Shown: piece by piece, positions 888 to 33,975 of the stretch
Numbering within the stretch: the first letter of the stretch is position 1
How the letters are laid out: each line of letters begins with the position of its first letter
Position numbers and translations under genes: made by a program
The notes under the pieces: generated by a model
What the model saw: only the letters and a program-made list of their open reading frames with translations
Database searches by the model: none
What the model was told of the DNA's origin: nothing
Origin: a virus
Reading direction: 5' to 3' (one strand)
DNA: 33,975 nucleotides
IMG/VR virus record: IMGVR_UViG_3300025101_000012
Coordinates: 1 to 33,975 of that record

Positions 888-1196
888 ATGAATATAAAAC
901 ACAGGAAAGGTATTATATCTCAACTAATTGCTCAGTCTTATCTGGTAAAACAAGAAGATATTATTGTGTTTACACCCCTTGATGGGTTAGGTCCTATTGA
1001 CATTATTACCTATAATACTAAAACTAAAGAGTATAAAAAATATGATGTTAAAACTGTATCATTTAGACAGCAACATGGCACAATGATTAATCGTTCACCT
1101 ACACAACAACAAAAAGATTTAGATGTAGAAATATTATATGTAACTGAACAAGGAGAAATTTACCCAGTTCCAAAACGTAAATTTAAAAATAAATGA
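888..1196 (+). CDS. PD-(D/E)XK-like small nuclease candidate
   Basis: 102 residues. The N-terminus has KGIISQLIAQSYLV, the helix that opens many small archaeal-resolvase-like or PDDEXK_5 endonucleases. It is followed by GLGPIDII (Asp38) and the strand YKKYDVKT (Asp53-x-Lys55), which fits the D-(x)n-(D/E)-x-K active-site pattern. The expected role is DNA cleavage, perhaps Holliday-junction resolution or host DNA degradation. No Shine-Dalgarno precedes the ATG. The stop overlaps the endolysin start as ATGA at 1193-1196, so the two are translationally coupled. The catalytic acid is Asp rather than Glu in the ExK position, which many members allow. Fold assignment is from motif reading only. Confidence 0.65.
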   Translation: MNIKHRKGIISQLIAQSYLVKQEDIIVFTPLDGLGPIDIITYNTKTKEYKKYDVKTVSFRQQHGTMINRSPTQQQKDLDVEILYVTEQGEIYPVPKRKFKNK

Positions 1197-1657
1197 AACT
1201 GACTGAAAACTTTAACCTTCGAGAGCTTACAAAATCACAAGTCGCCGAGCGTAACGGGATTCCAAACAATCCATCTAGTGACCACATTGATGCATTAAAA
1301 AAACTTGCAGAGTCTGTACTTCAACCTTTGCGTAACCACTATGAAAGTCCAGTAATTATTACTTCAGGCTATCGTAGTGCAGAATTATGTATGGCTATTG
1401 GATCAAATGGATTGACATCACAACACGCAAAAGGTCAAGCAGCAGACCTTGAAATTATTGGCGTTTCCAATTATGATACTGCATTATGGATTAAAAATAA
1501 TCTTGACTTTGACCAGCTTATATTAGAGTTCTGGAAAGGTGAAGATGAACCTAATAGTGGGTGGATTCATGTGTCGTATGTCGGCAAGAAAAATAGAAAA
1601 CAAAGTCTCAGAGCATTTAGAGACGACAATGGAAAAGTAAATTATAAACCTTGGTAA
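1193..1657 (+). CDS. Peptidase M15A-type endolysin (D-Ala peptide hydrolase)
   Basis: 154 residues matching the peptidase M15A family (PF08291 type), zinc enzymes that cut D-Ala-containing cross-links in peptidoglycan. Visible features are NFNLRELTKS near the start, the SGYRS motif (58-62), the zinc motif SQHAKGQAADLE (His78, Asp85) and the third ligand in WIHVSY (His126). The length is usual for a single-domain member, and no signal peptide is present, so release would need a holin. It overlaps the upstream nuclease-like gene by ATGA and precedes a holin candidate by one base, which makes a lysis cassette. Confidence in the enzyme family is high. Confidence 0.9.
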   Translation: MKLTENFNLRELTKSQVAERNGIPNNPSSDHIDALKKLAESVLQPLRNHYESPVIITSGYRSAELCMAIGSNGLTSQHAKGQAADLEIIGVSNYDTALWIKNNLDFDQLILEFWKGEDEPNSGWIHVSYVGKKNRKQSLRAFRDDNGKVNYKPW

Positions 1658-1658
1658 T

Positions 1659-2036
1659 ATGTGGTTAAGTGCAATAAAATTAGCAGCTCAAGTTGGAAGC
1701 AAAGTATACGCTAACAGACAAAAAGCAAAGATGGCTATGTCTGAGGCACAATTATTACACGCTGAACGACAAGCTCGTGGCGAAGAAGCTTATCAAGGTA
1801 AATTATTAGAAGCTAGACAATCAGATTGGAAAGACGAATTTATTTTAATTTTGCTCTCAGTGCCAATCGTGATGCTAGGATTTGCAGTATGGTCAGACAA
1901 CCCTGCGCACATGGAAAAAATGCAGCTTTTCTTTGAGTATTTTTCAAACCTTCCCTTTTGGTATCAGTCCATTTTTGTGGGTGTCATCGCATCTGTCTAT
2001 GGACTGAAAGCCACTGATCTGATAAAGCGTAAGTAA
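1659..2036 (+). CDS. Putative holin (two to three membrane helices)
   Basis: 125 residues. The N-terminal 55 residues are helical and Ala/Gln/Glu-rich. Residues about 60-78 (EFILILLSVPIVMLGFAVW) and about 101-117 (WYQSIFVGVIASVYGLKAT) are membrane helices, followed by a basic tail (DLIKRK). This is close to the GTA_holin_3TM layout. Starting one base after the M15 endolysin stop, it would form the inner-membrane lesion that lets the enzyme reach the cell wall. The assignment rests on topology and position. Confidence 0.65.
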   Translation: MWLSAIKLAAQVGSKVYANRQKAKMAMSEAQLLHAERQARGEEAYQGKLLEARQSDWKDEFILILLSVPIVMLGFAVWSDNPAHMEKMQLFFEYFSNLPFWYQSIFVGVIASVYGLKATDLIKRK

Positions 2037-2246: not shown

Positions 2247-2446
2247 TTTGTAAAAAAATTATTTGTATGAAGAGATTAAAAAAAGCAATTTGTAGAGTGT
2301 TATTACCCATTGTAGCAAGATGGGAGAATAGAATGTGGAAAGTTTTATATCAAAGACCAAGACGATATTGCGAATGTGTGAGTGATAAAGAGTTTGCTTA
2401 TCATGTTAAAAACAATTTACCAAACAAGGATCAGTTTAATGATTAG
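2243..2446 (+). CDS. Hypothetical basic, Cys-containing protein
   Basis: 67 residues beginning at an ATGA overlap with the previous stop. The N-terminal third (MICKKIICMKRLKKAICRVL) is amphipathic, basic and Cys-rich and may associate with membranes. The rest has RRYCECVSDKEFAYHVKNN. Its stop lies 8 nt inside the next gene. Translational coupling is the main support. Function unknown. Confidence 0.5.
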   Translation: MICKKIICMKRLKKAICRVLLPIVARWENRMWKVLYQRPRRYCECVSDKEFAYHVKNNLPNKDQFND

Positions 2447-3035
2447 ATTTTTATTAGCATTTATGCTAGTATGTTCTTTTGCTTATGGAGATACTACTCA
2501 AAATAATACTTCTGGCTCAAACACTTCCATCACAGGTGGATACACAAACTCAAATACTTATGAGTCAGGATCAAGTAATTCTTCAAGCACTACAAACAAC
2601 AGCACCAGCAATATTAGATCAGCACCTCCTAGTGCTTATGCACCTGGTCTATCCAATTCAGGTAATGATGTCTGCTCCGTAGGAGCTAGTGCTGGAGTTC
2701 AAACTTTTGGATTAGGTATATCAGGTGGTAAAGGTTTCAGAGATGAAAATTGTGAAAGAATAAAATTATCAAGACAATTAGATTCTATGGGAATGAAAGT
2801 TGCAGCGGTTGCTTTACTTTGCCAAGATCCCCGTGTCTTTGAATCTATGATTATGGCGGGGACTCCATGTCCTTACAATGGTAAGATAGGTAAACAAGCA
2901 GATAAGTTATGGAAAAAATATAATAAACTTAGACCAGATTACAAACAGTATACTAAAAATTTAAAAATTAAGGAGAAGATAGATGAAAAACTTATTCCTC
3001 GTAATAATTCTATCTATACTGACCCAGACGAGTAA
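2439..3035 (+). CDS. Sec-exported Ser/Thr/Asn-rich protein with conserved Cys domain
   Basis: 198 residues from the ATG at 2439, chosen over the upstream start at 2382 because it yields a clean signal peptide (MIRFLLAFMLVCSFAYG). Residues about 18-70 are low-complexity Asn/Ser/Thr/Gly. Residues about 75-140 form a compact domain with four Cys (NDVCSVGAS, DENCERI, ALLCQDP, GTPCPYN) and GVQTFGLGISGGKGFRD, followed by a Lys/Tyr-rich end. The predicted location is the periplasm or envelope, where the Cys could pair. It is followed by a second exported protein with a 53-nt overlap, so the two are probably made together. I recall similar proteins in marine podoviruses without known function. Lysis, superinfection exclusion or virion decoration are all possible. 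Confidence 0.8.
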   Translation: MIRFLLAFMLVCSFAYGDTTQNNTSGSNTSITGGYTNSNTYESGSSNSSSTTNNSTSNIRSAPPSAYAPGLSNSGNDVCSVGASAGVQTFGLGISGGKGFRDENCERIKLSRQLDSMGMKVAAVALLCQDPRVFESMIMAGTPCPYNGKIGKQADKLWKKYNKLRPDYKQYTKNLKIKEKIDEKLIPRNNSIYTDPDE

Positions 3036-4377
3036 TGCTGAACAAGCAACCTCTGGTAATCTTTTACCTAACGCTGGTGTCGGTACAACATCAGTACAAA
3101 ACCAATCAGGGTCAATAGATGGTATCAATGGATCAAATGGTTGGACCACATCAGGCGTATCTAATTTTAATAATGAGCTAGAAGCACAAGGCACTGGAAC
3201 AATATCTGCAAATGGATCATTGTTAAATATTACAACTGAAAAAGAAAATGGTGGTCAGTTTACAACAACAACAAATAGTTTAGATGGTGGTGTTAGATTA
3301 GACTCAACAACAGAAGTACAAAGTTGTGAATGGATAGGATCGGCTCATCAATGTGGACAAGCAACCAATGGCAGAGATAGTTATTCTACGACTGTAAATA
3401 TCAAAGATGAAAATAATCAAGTCTTATCAAGTGTAACACAAAACAGAAACAATGATGCTGGATATTATGGCAATACATTTACTTATAATGATACTGTTAT
3501 TCATAATGGAACAGGTGCAAGAAATTGGGATTGGACTTGGACAGGTGTGGATGGAAACAATGTTAATGCAACAGGTGCAGTTGGACCAAACTTATTAGGT
3601 GCTGAACTTACAGCAACCCTTTTAGATATTGATTACTCACCAATTCCACCAGCAGTACAGACTGAACTTGTTAGTTTTAACAATGAAATAAGAGAAGAGT
3701 TTAAAAAATTAGAAGAAGTTATAAATTTAAAAGAAGAAGTTAAGTTAGAGAAAGTTGCTTCTATTCAAGAAGAACCAAAACTTACTGAACCAAAAATGGA
3801 AAAGTTTAAAGAACCTGTTAAAACTATGCCAGTTAAAAAAGAAGAAGAACCAAAACAATTTGTAACTCAGAACAAACAAATAACAAGTCAAAGTTCTTCA
3901 CCTGCACAAACCAAAACTTTAAAACAAGAAACATCTAAAGAAGAAAAGATGGTTAAAGAAATAGCAAAAGAAGAAAAAACAGAAAAAACAAAACAGGTAT
4001 CAAATAAATCAAGTAGTAACAGTAATGTTTCAAGTGAAAACAAACCCTCAGTATCTGTTGTTTTACAAAAAACTATGGATAAAATTGATGAACGAGTCAA
4101 AGATATAGGTAAAAATTTAAAAATTAAAAACCTATTTAAGATGAGAGCAATGGTTGATAATTCTTTATTAGATGTATATAATATCCCATTTTATGAAACA
4201 AAAAATATTTACAAAGATCAACCAAGTATTCAAGACAACAGAAGAATATACACAACAAGTTTGGAATCGTATCAAAGATCAGATCCGATATTTCAAATGC
4301 AACGTAATGTACAGAAAATGCGATTGCAAAGAGAAAGACTTACAAGAGAAATAGAAATGTTAAAAAATGGACAGTAA
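2983..4377 (+). CDS. Large Sec-exported protein: beta-rich head, charged coiled-coil stalk
   Basis: 464 residues with an AAGGAG Shine-Dalgarno 7 nt before the ATG and a signal peptide (MKNLFLVIILSILTQTSNA, cleavage before EQ). Residues about 24-220 are Gly/Asn/Thr-rich beta sequence with GNLLPNAGVGTT, WTTSGVSNFNN and two Cys (SCEW, HQCGQ). Residues about 225-380 are Glu/Lys-rich and likely extended or coiled. The tail (about 420-464) is helical with QMQRNVQKMRLQRERLTREI. The NLLPN...GW.TSG head resembles extracellular carbohydrate-binding or adhesin-like modules; this is a resemblance only. The start lies inside the previous exported-protein gene. The export signal and the size of the two-gene module are unusual for a small lytic phage. 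Confidence 0.85.
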   Translation: MKNLFLVIILSILTQTSNAEQATSGNLLPNAGVGTTSVQNQSGSIDGINGSNGWTTSGVSNFNNELEAQGTGTISANGSLLNITTEKENGGQFTTTTNSLDGGVRLDSTTEVQSCEWIGSAHQCGQATNGRDSYSTTVNIKDENNQVLSSVTQNRNNDAGYYGNTFTYNDTVIHNGTGARNWDWTWTGVDGNNVNATGAVGPNLLGAELTATLLDIDYSPIPPAVQTELVSFNNEIREEFKKLEEVINLKEEVKLEKVASIQEEPKLTEPKMEKFKEPVKTMPVKKEEEPKQFVTQNKQITSQSSSPAQTKTLKQETSKEEKMVKEIAKEEKTEKTKQVSNKSSSNSNVSSENKPSVSVVLQKTMDKIDERVKDIGKNLKIKNLFKMRAMVDNSLLDVYNIPFYETKNIYKDQPSIQDNRRIYTTSLESYQRSDPIFQMQRNVQKMRLQRERLTREIEMLKNGQ

Positions 4378-4514: not shown

Positions 4515-4793
4515 ATGGTAAAAAAATTACAAGATAATCTTGCAGGGATTGCAGCACTTATTGGTGTTGTGGGTGCAATAGGTGCAGGATTTATTACTTA
4601 TGGTAAGATGCAAGAACAAATTAATTCTGTTGCTGGACTTGATTTAAATCCATTAATAAAAGAAATCTCTGCACAAAATATTAAAATTGAAAAACAAAAT
4701 AAAGCATTGGCTATTATGGGTAAAGAGATTCAAGTTCTACAATTAGAAATGAAAGAGTTTAAAGAATCAAACAAAAATCCTTTGTTAAATTAA
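4515..4793 (+). CDS. Membrane-anchored coiled-coil protein
   Basis: 92 residues. Residues about 9-30 (LAGIAALIGVVGAIGAGFITYG) form one Gly/Ala-rich membrane helix. The rest is an amphipathic helical stretch (IKEISAQNIKIEKQNKALAI, then QVLQLEMKEFKES) with coiled-coil spacing. The form fits a spanin-like or holin-accessory protein, or an envelope anchor for the exported proteins just upstream. There is no lipobox. Function unknown. Confidence 0.65.
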   Translation: MVKKLQDNLAGIAALIGVVGAIGAGFITYGKMQEQINSVAGLDLNPLIKEISAQNIKIEKQNKALAIMGKEIQVLQLEMKEFKESNKNPLLN

Positions 4794-4794
4794 A

Positions 4795-4971
4795 ATGATT
4801 GATGCACTTATTTTTATTGCATCCATCATATTGTTTTTAGATTATATGCAAAAATCATACGTCACTAAAGATCCTGAAGATCCTGAAACTAAAAAATGGA
4901 TTGAAGAAATAGAAGCAGACAAACGAAGAGAAAAGTTTTTTAATAATAAAAAAGATGGTGAGATAAAATAA
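4795..4971 (+). CDS. Small membrane protein with charged tail
   Basis: 58 residues. An N-terminal hydrophobic helix (MIDALIFIASIILFLDYMQ) precedes DPEDPETKKWIEEIEADKRR, a charged cytoplasmic-type tail. It starts one base after the preceding stop and its own stop overlaps the next ATG (TAATG at 4969-4973). With the gene before, it makes a pair of one-helix membrane proteins. No family recognised. Confidence 0.6.
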   Translation: MIDALIFIASIILFLDYMQKSYVTKDPEDPETKKWIEEIEADKRREKFFNNKKDGEIK

Positions 4972-5219
4972 TGGCAATCACATACCGAGGTGAAAAGTTT
5001 TCAGGTTACAACAAACCTAAGAACGCAAGAACCAAGACTAAAAAGTTTGCGGTTCTGGCAAAGGTAGGAAACAAGGTAAGACTTATTCGCTACGGGGATG
5101 CCAACATGACCATCAAAAAATCATCACCTGCAAGACGTAAATCCTTTAGAGCAAGACATCGCTGTGCAACTGCAACGAATAAATTGACTGCGAGATATTG
5201 GAGTTGTAAGAAGTGGTAG
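4971..5219 (+). CDS. DUF5754-like conserved phage protein
   Basis: 82 residues with a distinctive layout: YRGEKFSGYNKPK, then KTKKFAVLAKVGNKVRLIRY, GDANMTIKK, ARRKSFRARHRC and the ending KLTARYWSCKKW. This matches the DUF5754-type family shared by cyanophages, pelagiphages and larger marine viruses, usually beside structural genes. It is basic, with two Cys that could hold a metal. The role is unknown, perhaps virion-associated. It is the last gene before a strong terminator. Confidence 0.85.
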   Translation: MAITYRGEKFSGYNKPKNARTKTKKFAVLAKVGNKVRLIRYGDANMTIKKSSPARRKSFRARHRCATATNKLTARYWSCKKW

Positions 5220-5863: not shown

Positions 5864-5963
5864 AAAAAAATATACTGCAAAACAAATGAAGATAGCTCGT
5901 GTTGCAGAACCTAGAAATAGGATTACAGGAGCTGACTTTAAAAAATTAAGAAAGAAAAAATGA
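5844..5963 (+). CDS. Tiny basic conserved phage protein
   Basis: 39 residues with a GAAAGGAAATC ribosome site. The motif IARVAEPRNRITGADFKKLR is one I recognise as recurrent in small marine phage proteins of unknown function. Both ends are Lys-rich. Its stop overlaps the next ATG (AATGA at 5960-5963), giving a coupled chain of tiny genes. Confidence 0.7.
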   Translation: MPKKKGKKKYTAKQMKIARVAEPRNRITGADFKKLRKKK

Positions 5964-6103
5964 CAACTAAATCAATTAAAGCACCCAAAGGTTTTCATTG
6001 GATGAAAAAGGGTTCGTCTTATAAACTTATGAAAGGTGAATATAAGCCACACAGAGGAGCTGTGAGAATGGCAAAATTTACAGTACAAAAAAGACATGGC
6101 TAA
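5960..6103 (+). CDS. Tiny basic conserved phage protein (GFHWMKKGSSYKLMKG type)
   Basis: 47 residues beginning at an ATGA overlap. The layout PKGFHWMKKG...YKLMKG...PHRGAVRMAKFTVQKRHG matches a small conserved protein found in cyanophages and pelagiphages. It is basic and probably a single small beta fold. Function unknown. Its end overlaps the next gene by 8 nt. Confidence 0.7.
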   Translation: MTTKSIKAPKGFHWMKKGSSYKLMKGEYKPHRGAVRMAKFTVQKRHG

Positions 6104-6230
6104 ACTTTGTGCAAAAGGTAAAGCTGCTGCTAAAAGAAAATTCAAAGTCTATCCCAGTGCCTATGCAAATATGTATGCTGCTGGGGTATGTAGTGGTAGA
6201 ATAAAACCAAAACGTAAAAAGAAAAAATAA
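6096..6230 (+). CDS. Small conserved phage protein (KRKFKVYPSAYAN type)
   Basis: 44 residues: LCAKGKAAAKRKFKVYPSAY, then ANMYAAGVCSGRIKPK and a Lys-rich end. The KFKVYPSAYANMYA..VC.G signature is widely shared among marine phages and large DNA viruses as a short basic protein of unknown role. Two Cys flank the conserved core. The stop overlaps the next ATG (TAATG). Confidence 0.75.
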   Translation: MAKLCAKGKAAAKRKFKVYPSAYANMYAAGVCSGRIKPKRKKKK

Positions 6231-6475
6231 TGTCTAAAGGTTTACGATCATGGGTGAGAGCCAACTGGGTAGATATTGCTAACCCAAAAAAAGGTGGTGG
6301 TTTTCCCAAGTGTGGTCGTAGTGGTGGTGAGAAAAGAAGAAACTATCCTAAGTGTGTACCTTTATCAAAAGCCAGAGCCATGTCTCCAAGTCAAAGAGCT
6401 GCTGCAGTACGAAGAAAGAAAACAGCAGAGAGAAAAACACGCAGGGGTAAAAAACCTAATTACGCAAGAACATAG
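6230..6475 (+). CDS. DUF5872-like conserved basic protein
   Basis: 81 residues with GLRSWVRANWVDIANPKKGG, then PKCGRSGGEKRRNYPKCVPL, SKARAMSPSQRAAAVRRKK and a basic end. This is the DUF5872-type layout: KG...W....W.DI..PK.GGG...CGR......YPKCVP..KA..M. It usually lies beside the preceding KVYPSAYAN gene, as here, so the two probably work together. The paired Cys may bind a metal. Role unknown; nucleic-acid or virion binding is plausible given the charge. Confidence 0.85.
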   Translation: MSKGLRSWVRANWVDIANPKKGGGFPKCGRSGGEKRRNYPKCVPLSKARAMSPSQRAAAVRRKKTAERKTRRGKKPNYART

Positions 6476-6478
6476 TAA

Positions 6479-6712
6479 ATGAAATCATTTTTTTTATTTG
6501 CAATGATTTGTTTTGCTGATCCTGAAGCACCACGTGGTATTAGCTGTATGGATTTTAAAGAAAATGATGATAAAATTTATAACTCTCCCAAGGCTTGTTA
6601 TGATGCAGCAAATAAAGTGGGTGATGAAATTAAAATACAATTTACCACTAACGAAATTAAAATATTAGAGTTAATTATTTGGTGTGTAAATACTAAAGGT
6701 GAGATTGTTTAG
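6479..6712 (+). CDS. Small probably exported Cys protein
   Basis: 77 residues. The N-terminus MKSFFLFAMICFADPEAPRG reads as a short signal peptide cleaved near FA-DP. The mature part has three Cys (SCMDF, KACYDA, WCVNT) and would be periplasmic. It ends at 6710-6712 and overlaps the stop codon of the convergent minus-strand DnaA-like gene. It is the third exported-protein candidate of this genome. Confidence 0.65.
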   Translation: MKSFFLFAMICFADPEAPRGISCMDFKENDDKIYNSPKACYDAANKVGDEIKIQFTTNEIKILELIIWCVNTKGEIV

Positions 6713-31734: not shown

Positions 31735-33975
31735 ATGACCATATCATCTACAACAGTTAGAAATTCATATTCAGGCGATGGATCAACTACTGCCTTTAGC
31801 TACACCTTTAAGATTTTTGCTGACTCTGATTTACAAGTTATCATAAGAAGTAGCACAGGATCTGAAACTACAAAAACTATCTCAACTCATTACAATGTTT
31901 CTGGAGCTGGAGATGCTTCAGGTGGAAGTGTAACTTTCACATCAGGTAATATTCCTGCATCTGGAGAGACTGTAGTTCTTAGAAGAGCTGTCCCGCAAAC
32001 ACAAGCAATAGATTATATTGCTAATGATCCTTTCCCTGCGGAGTCTCACGAAGAGGGTCTGGATCGTGCAACAATGAACATTCAACAAATGCAAGAAGAG
32101 TTGGATAGATCATTTAAAGTTTCAAGAACTAACTCAATTACAACTCCAGAATTTACAGACAGTGCATCAGACAGAGCTTCTAAAACATTAGGCTTTGATA
32201 GCGATGGAAACTTAACCACTGTTGCAGATTTTTTACCTGCGGGTGGAGACTCTGCACAATTTACTTATTCAACAACAACAACTGATTCTGATCCAGGATC
32301 AGGAATATTTAGATTAAACAATGCAACAATCTCTAGTGCAACAGAAATGTACATTGATGATTTAGAAGCAAATGGAACAGATGTTTCTGCTTGGGTTCAA
32401 TCATGGGATGATGTGACAGGTAATGATACTAATAGAGGAAGAATAAGAATTTCAAAAGCAAACACCTTAGATAGTTGGATGGTATTTAAAGTAACGGGTG
32501 CAATCACTGACGCAAGTGGTTATTCAAAAATAAGTTTAGTATACATTGATAACGCTGGGACATTTTCTAACAATGACAAAGTATTTATTTCATTTGTAGC
32601 CAGTGGAGAAGACGGATCAATACCAGGATATTTTTACAAGTTTGATACTGGAACATCTGATGCAGATCCAGGAGCTGGAGAGATAGCATTTAATAATGGA
32701 ACTTATGCTTCTGCTACAGAAATTTATATTGATGACGCTGATTCAAATGGCGTTACTGTTTCAGCAGATATTTTAACATGGGATGATTCAACATCAACTA
32801 TCAGAGGATATTTGCATATTGTAGATATTAACGACAGCACTACATACGCAAGATTTAAAATTACAGGTGCGTCAACTGATGCTTCAGGTTACGTAAAATT
32901 AGCTGTAGGTCATTTAGCATCCAATAATACTTTTTCTGCTGCGGATGAATTATCAGTTCACTTTACAAGAAACGGAGACACTGGAGATACAGGTGCTACT
33001 GGATCAACTGGTTCTACAGGATCAACTGGTGCCACTGGAGCTTCAGGAACAAACTCACAGCTATCCATGACTTTCAATAACTCTACATCAGACGCTGACC
33101 CTGGTGCTGGTAAAATTGCTTTTAACAATGGCACATTAGCAAGTGTATCAGTTCTATTTGTAGATGATGCAGACGATGGTGGAGCAGACATTACCACTTT
33201 TGTACAATCTTTTGATGATGTTTCAAACTCAACAGCAAGAGGAATTGTTACCATTACAAAAGAAGGTACACCCGCAACTTTTGCAACTTACAAAGTATCA
33301 GGTGCGATTACAGATGCTTCTGGATATACAAAAGTTCCAGTAACACATTTAGCTTCTAATGGCACTTTTTCTAATACAGATGGAGTAGGTGTTCATTTTA
33401 GTTATTCAGGTGCAGATGGATCTGGAGACATAGAAGGAGTTACAGCAGGAACAAATTTATCAGGCGGAGGAACAAGCGGAACTGTTACTATAAATTTAGC
33501 AGATGCTTCAACCTCAGCTAAAGGTGCTGCGTCTTTTAGTTCAGATAATTTTGCTGCTAGTTCAGGTGCAATAACAATTAAAGATTTAGGAGTGGCTACA
33601 GCAGAAATACAAGATAACGCAATTACTTTAGCAAAAATGGCTGGTGGTACAGATGGAAATATTATTTCTTATGATGCGTCTGGTGATCCTGTAGCTGTTG
33701 CAACTGGAAGTGCAGGACAAGTTTTAACTTCTGCAGGTGCAGGTTCACCTCCAACTTTTGCTACTCCTAGTGGCGGATCAAGTGATTTCTTTTTTGCATC
33801 TAAAACCTCTGGTCAAAGTATACCAAACAATACTAATACCAAAGTAACTTTTACTAGCGAAGATTATGACACAGGTAGTGATTTTGCTTCTAGTACATAT
33901 ACCGCTCCTTCAGATGGCAAATACTTTTTTTACACTAAATTATTATGTGATAATAGTTCAGGCGATACAGCTAAA
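31735..33975 (+). CDS. Tail fibre protein (5' part; continues across the circle junction)
   Basis: The frame is open from the ATG at 31735 to the window end. After removal of the 99-bp duplication it continues at base 100 and stops at 307-309, giving about 816 residues. Residues 1-130 resemble the T7 gp17 N-terminal domain that attaches the fibre to the tail (RRAVPQTQAIDYIANDPFPA, then an EEGLDRATMNIQQMQEELDR helix). Three homologous modules of about 115 residues follow (about 175-295, 298-413 and 444-560). Each starts with a D-x-DPG-x-G motif and contains VTGAITDASGY or a close variant. A collagen-like G-x-y run (about 414-440) separates modules 2 and 3. The end, about 682-816, is C1q-like (YTAPSDGKYFF, SAILDLSADD, YFMGYKIA), probably the trimeric receptor-binding tip. 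The gene follows the ejected internal protein, as in T7-like phages. The start is well supported by the family match at residue 1. Confidence 0.9.
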   Translation, partial: MTISSTTVRNSYSGDGSTTAFSYTFKIFADSDLQVIIRSSTGSETTKTISTHYNVSGAGDASGGSVTFTSGNIPASGETVVLRRAVPQTQAIDYIANDPFPAESHEEGLDRATMNIQQMQEELDRSFKVSRTNSITTPEFTDSASDRASKTLGFDSDGNLTTVADFLPAGGDSAQFTYSTTTTDSDPGSGIFRLNNATISSATEMYIDDLEANGTDVSAWVQSWDDVTGNDTNRGRIRISKANTLDSWMVFKVTGAITDASGYSKISLVYIDNAGTFSNNDKVFISFVASGEDGSIPGYFYKFDTGTSDADPGAGEIAFNNGTYASATEIYIDDADSNGVTVSADILTWDDSTSTIRGYLHIVDINDSTTYARFKITGASTDASGYVKLAVGHLASNNTFSAADELSVHFTRNGDTGDTGATGSTGSTGSTGATGASGTNSQLSMTFNNSTSDADPGAGKIAFNNGTLASVSVLFVDDADDGGADITTFVQSFDDVSNSTARGIVTITKEGTPATFATYKVSGAITDASGYTKVPVTHLASNGTFSNTDGVGVHFSYSGADGSGDIEGVTAGTNLSGGGTSGTVTINLADASTSAKGAASFSSDNFAASSGAITIKDLGVATAEIQDNAITLAKMAGGTDGNIISYDASGDPVAVATGSAGQVLTSAGAGSPPTFATPSGGSSDFFFASKTSGQSIPNNTNTKVTFTSEDYDTGSDFASSTYTAPSDGKYFFYTKLLCDNSSGDTAK
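33877..33975. repeat. Right copy of the 99-bp terminal direct repeat
   Basis: Exact copy of bases 1-99. Removing one copy closes the genome at about 33,876 bp and joins the tail-fibre gene without changing its frame. Confidence 0.95.

Follow-up and report, generated by a model that had tools for sequence, protein, structure and literature searches.

Two-component spanins (Rz/Rz1; PHROG 739/812), the curli genes of pelagiphages and several sugar-binding domains are the described systems with which the genes reported here can be compared. Features in common with spanins are a trans-envelope idea, a late lysis neighbourhood and overlapping genes. With curli, or type VIII secretion, the likeness lies in an exported multigene cassette that occurs across unrelated SAR11 phages and for which a surface or lysis role has been proposed, as it is here (PMC9599517, PMC7029224, PMC9004378). 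The domains CBM_4_9, CBM61, CBM16 and the Fbs1 sugar-recognition domain share the predicted fold of one part of the locus. As to lysis genes already named in these phages, the Skadi paper names, for the HTVC010P group, only a peptidase M15 (PMC10504331).

The window, by which we mean the whole stretch of 33,975 nucleotides analysed (IMG/VR record IMGVR_UViG_3300025101_000012), is a complete phage genome. Its first 99 bases are repeated exactly at its end as a direct repeat (1-99 and 33877-33975), from which we take the genome to be complete and either circular or terminally redundant, and its terminase shares about 82-84% identity with the terminases of HTVC010P-type pelagiphages, the type to which this genome belongs. 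Three genes, here called A, B and C, follow the endolysin and a holin-like gene in that order, on the same strand as the structural block and placed after it in the circular map (Table 1). A sequence-only reading had singled out A and B as an overlapping pair with Sec-type signal peptides, and both features held up: the genes overlap by 53 nt (2983-3035), and a hydropathy rule, by which the signal peptides of both proteins were called, recognizes the two N-termini.

The locus differs from spanins in having no lipoprotein, in encoding a large exported, stalked, lectin-like protein, and in lying beside real spanins in T4-like relatives. It differs from curli in that none of the 39 records searched has CsgG and in that A, B and C match no curli family. 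Compared with the sugar-binding domains, the head of B stays below the Pfam cut-off, as scored in two relatives, and is joined to a signal peptide, a stalk, a helical tail and the partners A and C. No convincing Pfam, NCBIfam or PADLOC family was found for the three proteins, PHROG gave only a family of unknown function for A (phrog_20531, which names no partners), and full-text searches of a library of papers found no description of the trio. The sole PADLOC match, of C to DrmMII (E=0.0028), was rejected as a chance coil match, as it scored 14.6 bits over 44 of 371 positions; the trio appears to be no known defence family.

Table 1. Features of the window in and around the A-B-C locus
Feature	Position	Strand	Evidence
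Peptidase_M15 endolysin	1193..1657	+	PF08291 E=1.6e-15; phrog_894 endolysin E=1.2e-38
Two-helix holin-like membrane protein	1659..2036	+	phrog_2524 (function unknown) E=1.6e-29
Gene A, exported 198-aa protein	2439..3035	+	ORF, 40-member alignment, phrog_20531
Gene B, exported 464-aa stalked protein	2983..4377	+	ORF, alignment, predicted model
B head, residues about 20-215	3040..3627	+	model, fold matches, head swaps
B stalk, Glu/Lys/Pro-rich	3646..4062	+	model and sequence
B tail, helical C-terminal region	4063..4374	+	conserved residues in 47 sequences
Gene C, 92-aa membrane protein (one helix, coiled coil, NPL at the C-terminus)	4515..4793	+	alignment, linkage
58-aa one-hydrophobic-helix protein	4795..4971	+	close relatives only; outside obligate module
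77-aa exported-looking Cys protein	6479..6712	+	close relatives only; outside obligate module

An obligate unit of three genes and its distribution

At least 594 relatives of A were confirmed in IMG/VR, which argues that A is not a chance ORF; 80 of these loci were kept, and dereplication of the A loci left 53. A large exported gene occupied the B position, as defined by position, length and hydrophobic start rather than by homology, in all 44 of the 53 non-redundant loci that had at least 2.7 kb of downstream sequence. Starting instead from C, independently of A and B, and taking the best 80 of 334 confirmed loci without dereplication, we found B directly upstream in 69/69 loci with at least 700 bp upstream and A in 51/51 with at least 3.4 kb. 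In almost all complete loci, A and B alike have an export-type N-terminus. A, B and C are an obligate unit of three genes, so the co-occurrence that the sequence-only reading had proposed checking in relatives is there for the trio. That reading had implied a set of five, adding three small genes; each has the features ascribed to it (one helix each in C and the 58-aa protein, an exported-looking N-terminus in the 77-aa protein), and only C belongs to the module, the other two being detected in 14 and 7 loci respectively, all close relatives. The broader claim of an envelope module that matches no described phage system is supported by this linkage and by the lack of a named family or published description. 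After the module the window also encodes small, very basic proteins in series (4971-5219, 5960-6475), some of which are like the basic Cys/Trp-ended proteins of other pelagiphages.

The trio was found in the Pelagibacter phages HTVC023P, HTVC202P (which has a tape-measure gene) and T4-like Mosig, Baldr and HTVC033P, and in one uncultured phage of the Autographiviridae; it occurs in unrelated podo-, sipho- and myoviruses. Matches to A came from 11 phage records and from 19 loci in cell genomes (L104-L122). The latter lie on contigs of marine MAGs or single cells whose host names are scattered, and are probably phage contigs binned with hosts. Archaea, Flavobacteriia and Actinomycetota are among the host labels of the MAG contigs. 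GenBank labels on some A or B genes read "putative carbohydrate binding domain containing protein", "OmpA family protein" and "transport protein tonB". Related arrangements, in which the gene in the B position falls outside the B profile, occur in HTVC115P, two Manatee Spring phages and the roseophages CRP-207 and CRP-810, and such a gene was likewise seen in ct7L0027, ctXG6705 and several MAG loci.

HTVC010P, HTVC034P, Skadi-5 and Lederberg are not among the A matches and carry different small genes, of membrane or exported type, where the trio would be. In the T4-like HTVC008M, also without an A match, the spanin region leads into the coil gene and primase that follow C elsewhere, the coil gene being 35-37% identical to those of Mosig and of loci L077 and L086. 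Because isolates of the HTVC010P group fill the slot with other genes and the HTVC008M region lacks A, the trio is an optional cassette. The Skadi-5 slot (L129:23382-24260) holds a comparably built pair without an A match: a coil protein with a single helix, and an exported Cys protein rich in Asn. Several pelagiphages, some with A-B-C and some lacking it, have in this region a one-helix coil gene (phrog_20984) and a 70-aa exported-looking Cys gene (for example L031:2359-2951 and L127:25223-26149). HTVC008M carries CsgF/CsgG (L131:7562-9557) and no A match, and Mosig (L003) carries A-B-C and no CsgG; curli and A-B-C cassettes could be alternatives, but these are two phages, so the pattern is possibly chance.

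The three proteins and exchange of the B head

The ORF of A spans 2382-3035, and the start at ATG 2439 gives the 198-aa protein, with the signal peptide MIRFLLAFMLVCSFAYG. The mature part consists of a Ser/Thr/Asn-rich stretch with a conserved GSNTxIxGGY, followed by a core that holds most of the invariant columns, around four conserved Cys; the earlier description of A as a four-Cys Ser/Thr/Asn-rich protein was accurate, all four lying in the mature part. A matches phrog_20531 (E=3.5e-16), and so do distant members, some of which have long NT repeats and a hydrophobic C-terminal end. The predicted model is poor (mean pLDDT 52.5), a sequence search of the PDB gave no match, and a Pfam search at E up to 1 gave no curlin match. 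C, as judged from sequence and alignment, has one N-terminal hydrophobic helix followed by a coil, matching the design of the inner-membrane subunit of spanins; its C-terminal NPL is kept by all 21 aligned members, whose identity falls as low as 17%. Among PHROG spanin families C matches only phrog_739, at E=0.16, and A and B match none.

B is predicted to begin with the signal peptide MKNLFLVIILSILTQTSNA. Its model has strands at residues 22-213, mostly at high confidence, that form a jellyroll head; a stalk at about 250-356 that is disordered, with a predicted helix followed by mostly low-confidence positions; and helices at 357-461. The beta-rich head and charged stalk anticipated by the sequence-only reading are thus recovered in the model. 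Y399, Y423, L427 and Y430 of the tail are invariant in 47 sequences. Fold comparisons with the predicted model matched the head to the Fbs1 sugar-recognition domain 2rj2 (Z 15.2, 2.4 A, 153 residues) and to TmCBM61 (Z 10.8), suggesting that most of the domain adopts the jellyroll fold seen in sugar-binding domains. By sequence, B of the window has no Pfam match, two of its relatives match CBM_4_9 (PF02018) at 16.8 and 15.7 bits, below the curated cut-off of 25.9, and PDB matches are weak and confined to the low-complexity stalk.

The head of B is exchanged between phages. Among 3321 pairs drawn from 82 loci, 43 pairs, not independent of one another, have tails more than 70% identical and heads less than 35% identical. 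In the DNA, L034 and L045 are 92.3% identical as far as nt 28 of B, do not match over the head and match again, at 91.6%, from the stalk onward; L068 and L069 likewise share 86.2% identity as far as nt 58 of B and 94.2% once the stalk is reached. These are two separate cases of head exchange in which A, stalk and tail stay similar. Domain exchange in a recognition part gives just such a pattern, and the target recognized may itself vary. A search of the heads against other genes in the loci examined, mostly flanks, and including tail fibres, gave no match, the hits being B copies, or B relatives ended by a contig edge or outside the B list.

Lysis genes around the trio

Lysis genes were counted by phmmer with fixed seeds. 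The 11 seeds came from phages without an A match (six) and from the A-bearing Baldr, HTVC202P and AP013540 (five), in which they are more than 4 kb away from the trio. They gave 29 matches in the roughly 240 kb examined that lie no more than 2 kb from the module, against none in the 186 kb at 2-4 kb and one in the 105 kb at 4-6 kb. Counted by locus, a match lay within 2 kb in 22 of 66 non-redundant loci; the other 44, many of which are short-flanked, gave none with these seeds. With wider seeds, partly picked for proximity to A, lysis-gene density was 0.39 per kb in the first upstream kb, compared with 0.055 per kb across nine genomes. These wider seeds also placed a lysis gene no more than 4 kb upstream or 5 kb downstream of A in 24 of the 35 loci with enough flanking sequence, spanin genes being present in six of the 24. 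Holins alone were found in 10/37 loci within 3.5 kb and in 8/37 within 1.5 kb upstream. The holin-like gene of the window owes that name to its position and topology, and a Pfam holin search of it gave no match.

The linked lysis genes are of several unrelated kinds, including M15 in the window, annotated lysozymes in CRP-207 and CRP-810, GTA_holin_3TM in Mosig and spanins in T4-like phages, and this variety argues that the linkage is functional and not simply inherited. HTVC202P and Baldr are exceptions, their endolysin lying about 10 kb or more from the trio. In three T4-like loci (L061, L077 and L086) an i-spanin (Rz-like phrog_739, E 1e-9 to 4e-7) and an o-spanin (phrog_812, E 5e-9 to 3e-7) lie upstream of A, and the trio is therefore not needed there for canonical outer-membrane disruption. 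A lipobox search of eight genomes, the window and seven that are related or bear A, found no credible ORF; its three matches are 46-47-aa ORFs antisense to annotated genes. Since the trio has no lipoprotein and true spanins adjoin it in T4-like loci, we ruled it out as a spanin set.

Possible functions of the trio

The reading we favour, tentatively, is that A-B-C form a late, lysis-linked, envelope-spanning and lectin-like complex. C would be anchored in the inner membrane, its coiled coil lying on the periplasmic side, and the helical tail of exported B would pair with C, with A, or with both. The charged stalk may then cross the periplasm and cell wall, so that the jellyroll head could hold a glycan of the host's outer envelope, either lipopolysaccharide or another surface sugar. 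A, exported and disulfide-bonded, would be the partner by which B is carried or put in place. Produced alongside the endolysin and holin, such a complex may help to breach or condition the outer envelope, letting progeny exit. The sequence-only reading had offered superinfection exclusion, a part in lysis and action on the surface as roles; lysis gains from gene position, and surface action from the swapped, sugar-binding-like heads. Against a role in lysis, exchange of heads is more usual in recognition than in bulk lysis, linkage to lysis genes is not universal, as the HTVC202P and Baldr loci and the 44 loci lacking a nearby match illustrate, and the HTVC010P group can lyse without the trio, given the four isolates that lack an A match. 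The one pelagiphage transcriptome we found covers HTVC022P and HTVC027P (PMC12753301), neither of which is among the A matches.

The main rival, which we think unlikely, is a block to adsorption or superinfection, with lectin-like B exported late to mask the phage's own receptor glycan, excluding sister phages and keeping virions off debris. Exported proteins, a sugar-binding-like head and heads that swap while stalk, A and C stay constant, as if a recognition part tracked a variable target, would all suit such a block, but C lies in the inner membrane and the trio showed no pore or anchor for the outer membrane, leaving access to the surface unexplained; moreover, the heads match no tail fibre or other gene in the flanks searched, and the trio sits at the lysis end rather than among early genes. 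It is improbable that the trio substitutes for spanins, itself fusing or disrupting the outer membrane in phages without Rz/Rz1. The i-spanin-like topology of C, the lack of a credible lipobox ORF in the eight genomes searched and the adjoining endolysin and holin-like gene are consistent with substitution, whereas the T4-like loci have both spanins already, the trio brings no outer-membrane lipoprotein, and isolates of the HTVC010P type do without either the trio or recognisable spanins; a one-helix coil gene (phrog_20984) between A and B in L029 and L031 further demotes this idea.

We give as little credence to a curli-like surface adhesin or aggregation device, in which partly repetitive exported A would form fibres with B at the tip. 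The Ser/Thr/Asn-rich N-terminal part of A and the long NT repeats of its distant members fit such a device, and other pelagiphages are known to carry curli genes (PMC9599517, PMC7029224). However, CsgG was found in none of 39 records, comprising the window, 15 named phages and several fragments among others, while a control in cell genomes detected it in 4 of 14, and Pfam finds no curlin repeat in A; the trio was rejected as curli on these grounds. Jellyroll heads are common in tail fibres, and the structure matches of the B head among viral proteins include tail-fibre-type jellyroll proteins. That A and B are ordinary virion or tail parts with an incidental N-terminal hydrophobic stretch is nevertheless highly improbable, as export-type N-termini recur on both in almost all complete loci, the genes of the window follow the endolysin and holin-like gene outside the tail block, and the same trio accompanies unrelated tails in podo-, sipho- and myoviruses.

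Returning to the lysis-linked complex, a bolder version of it, which we regard as rather doubtful, is that the trio represents a new class of phage envelope machine: a stalked lectin tethered in the inner membrane, its heads exchanged like the receptor-binding parts of tails, which would grip or cap host-specific envelope glycans at lysis and travel as a cassette among unrelated phages that infect the dominant bacteria of the ocean. HTVC023P- and HTVC010P-type phages are reported to be the two most abundant known groups of pelagiphages (PMC12753301). A conserved, mobile envelope trio beside the endolysin is a concrete candidate for the passage of pelagiphages through the outer membrane, and the exchanged heads of B point to a recognition step that can be tested.
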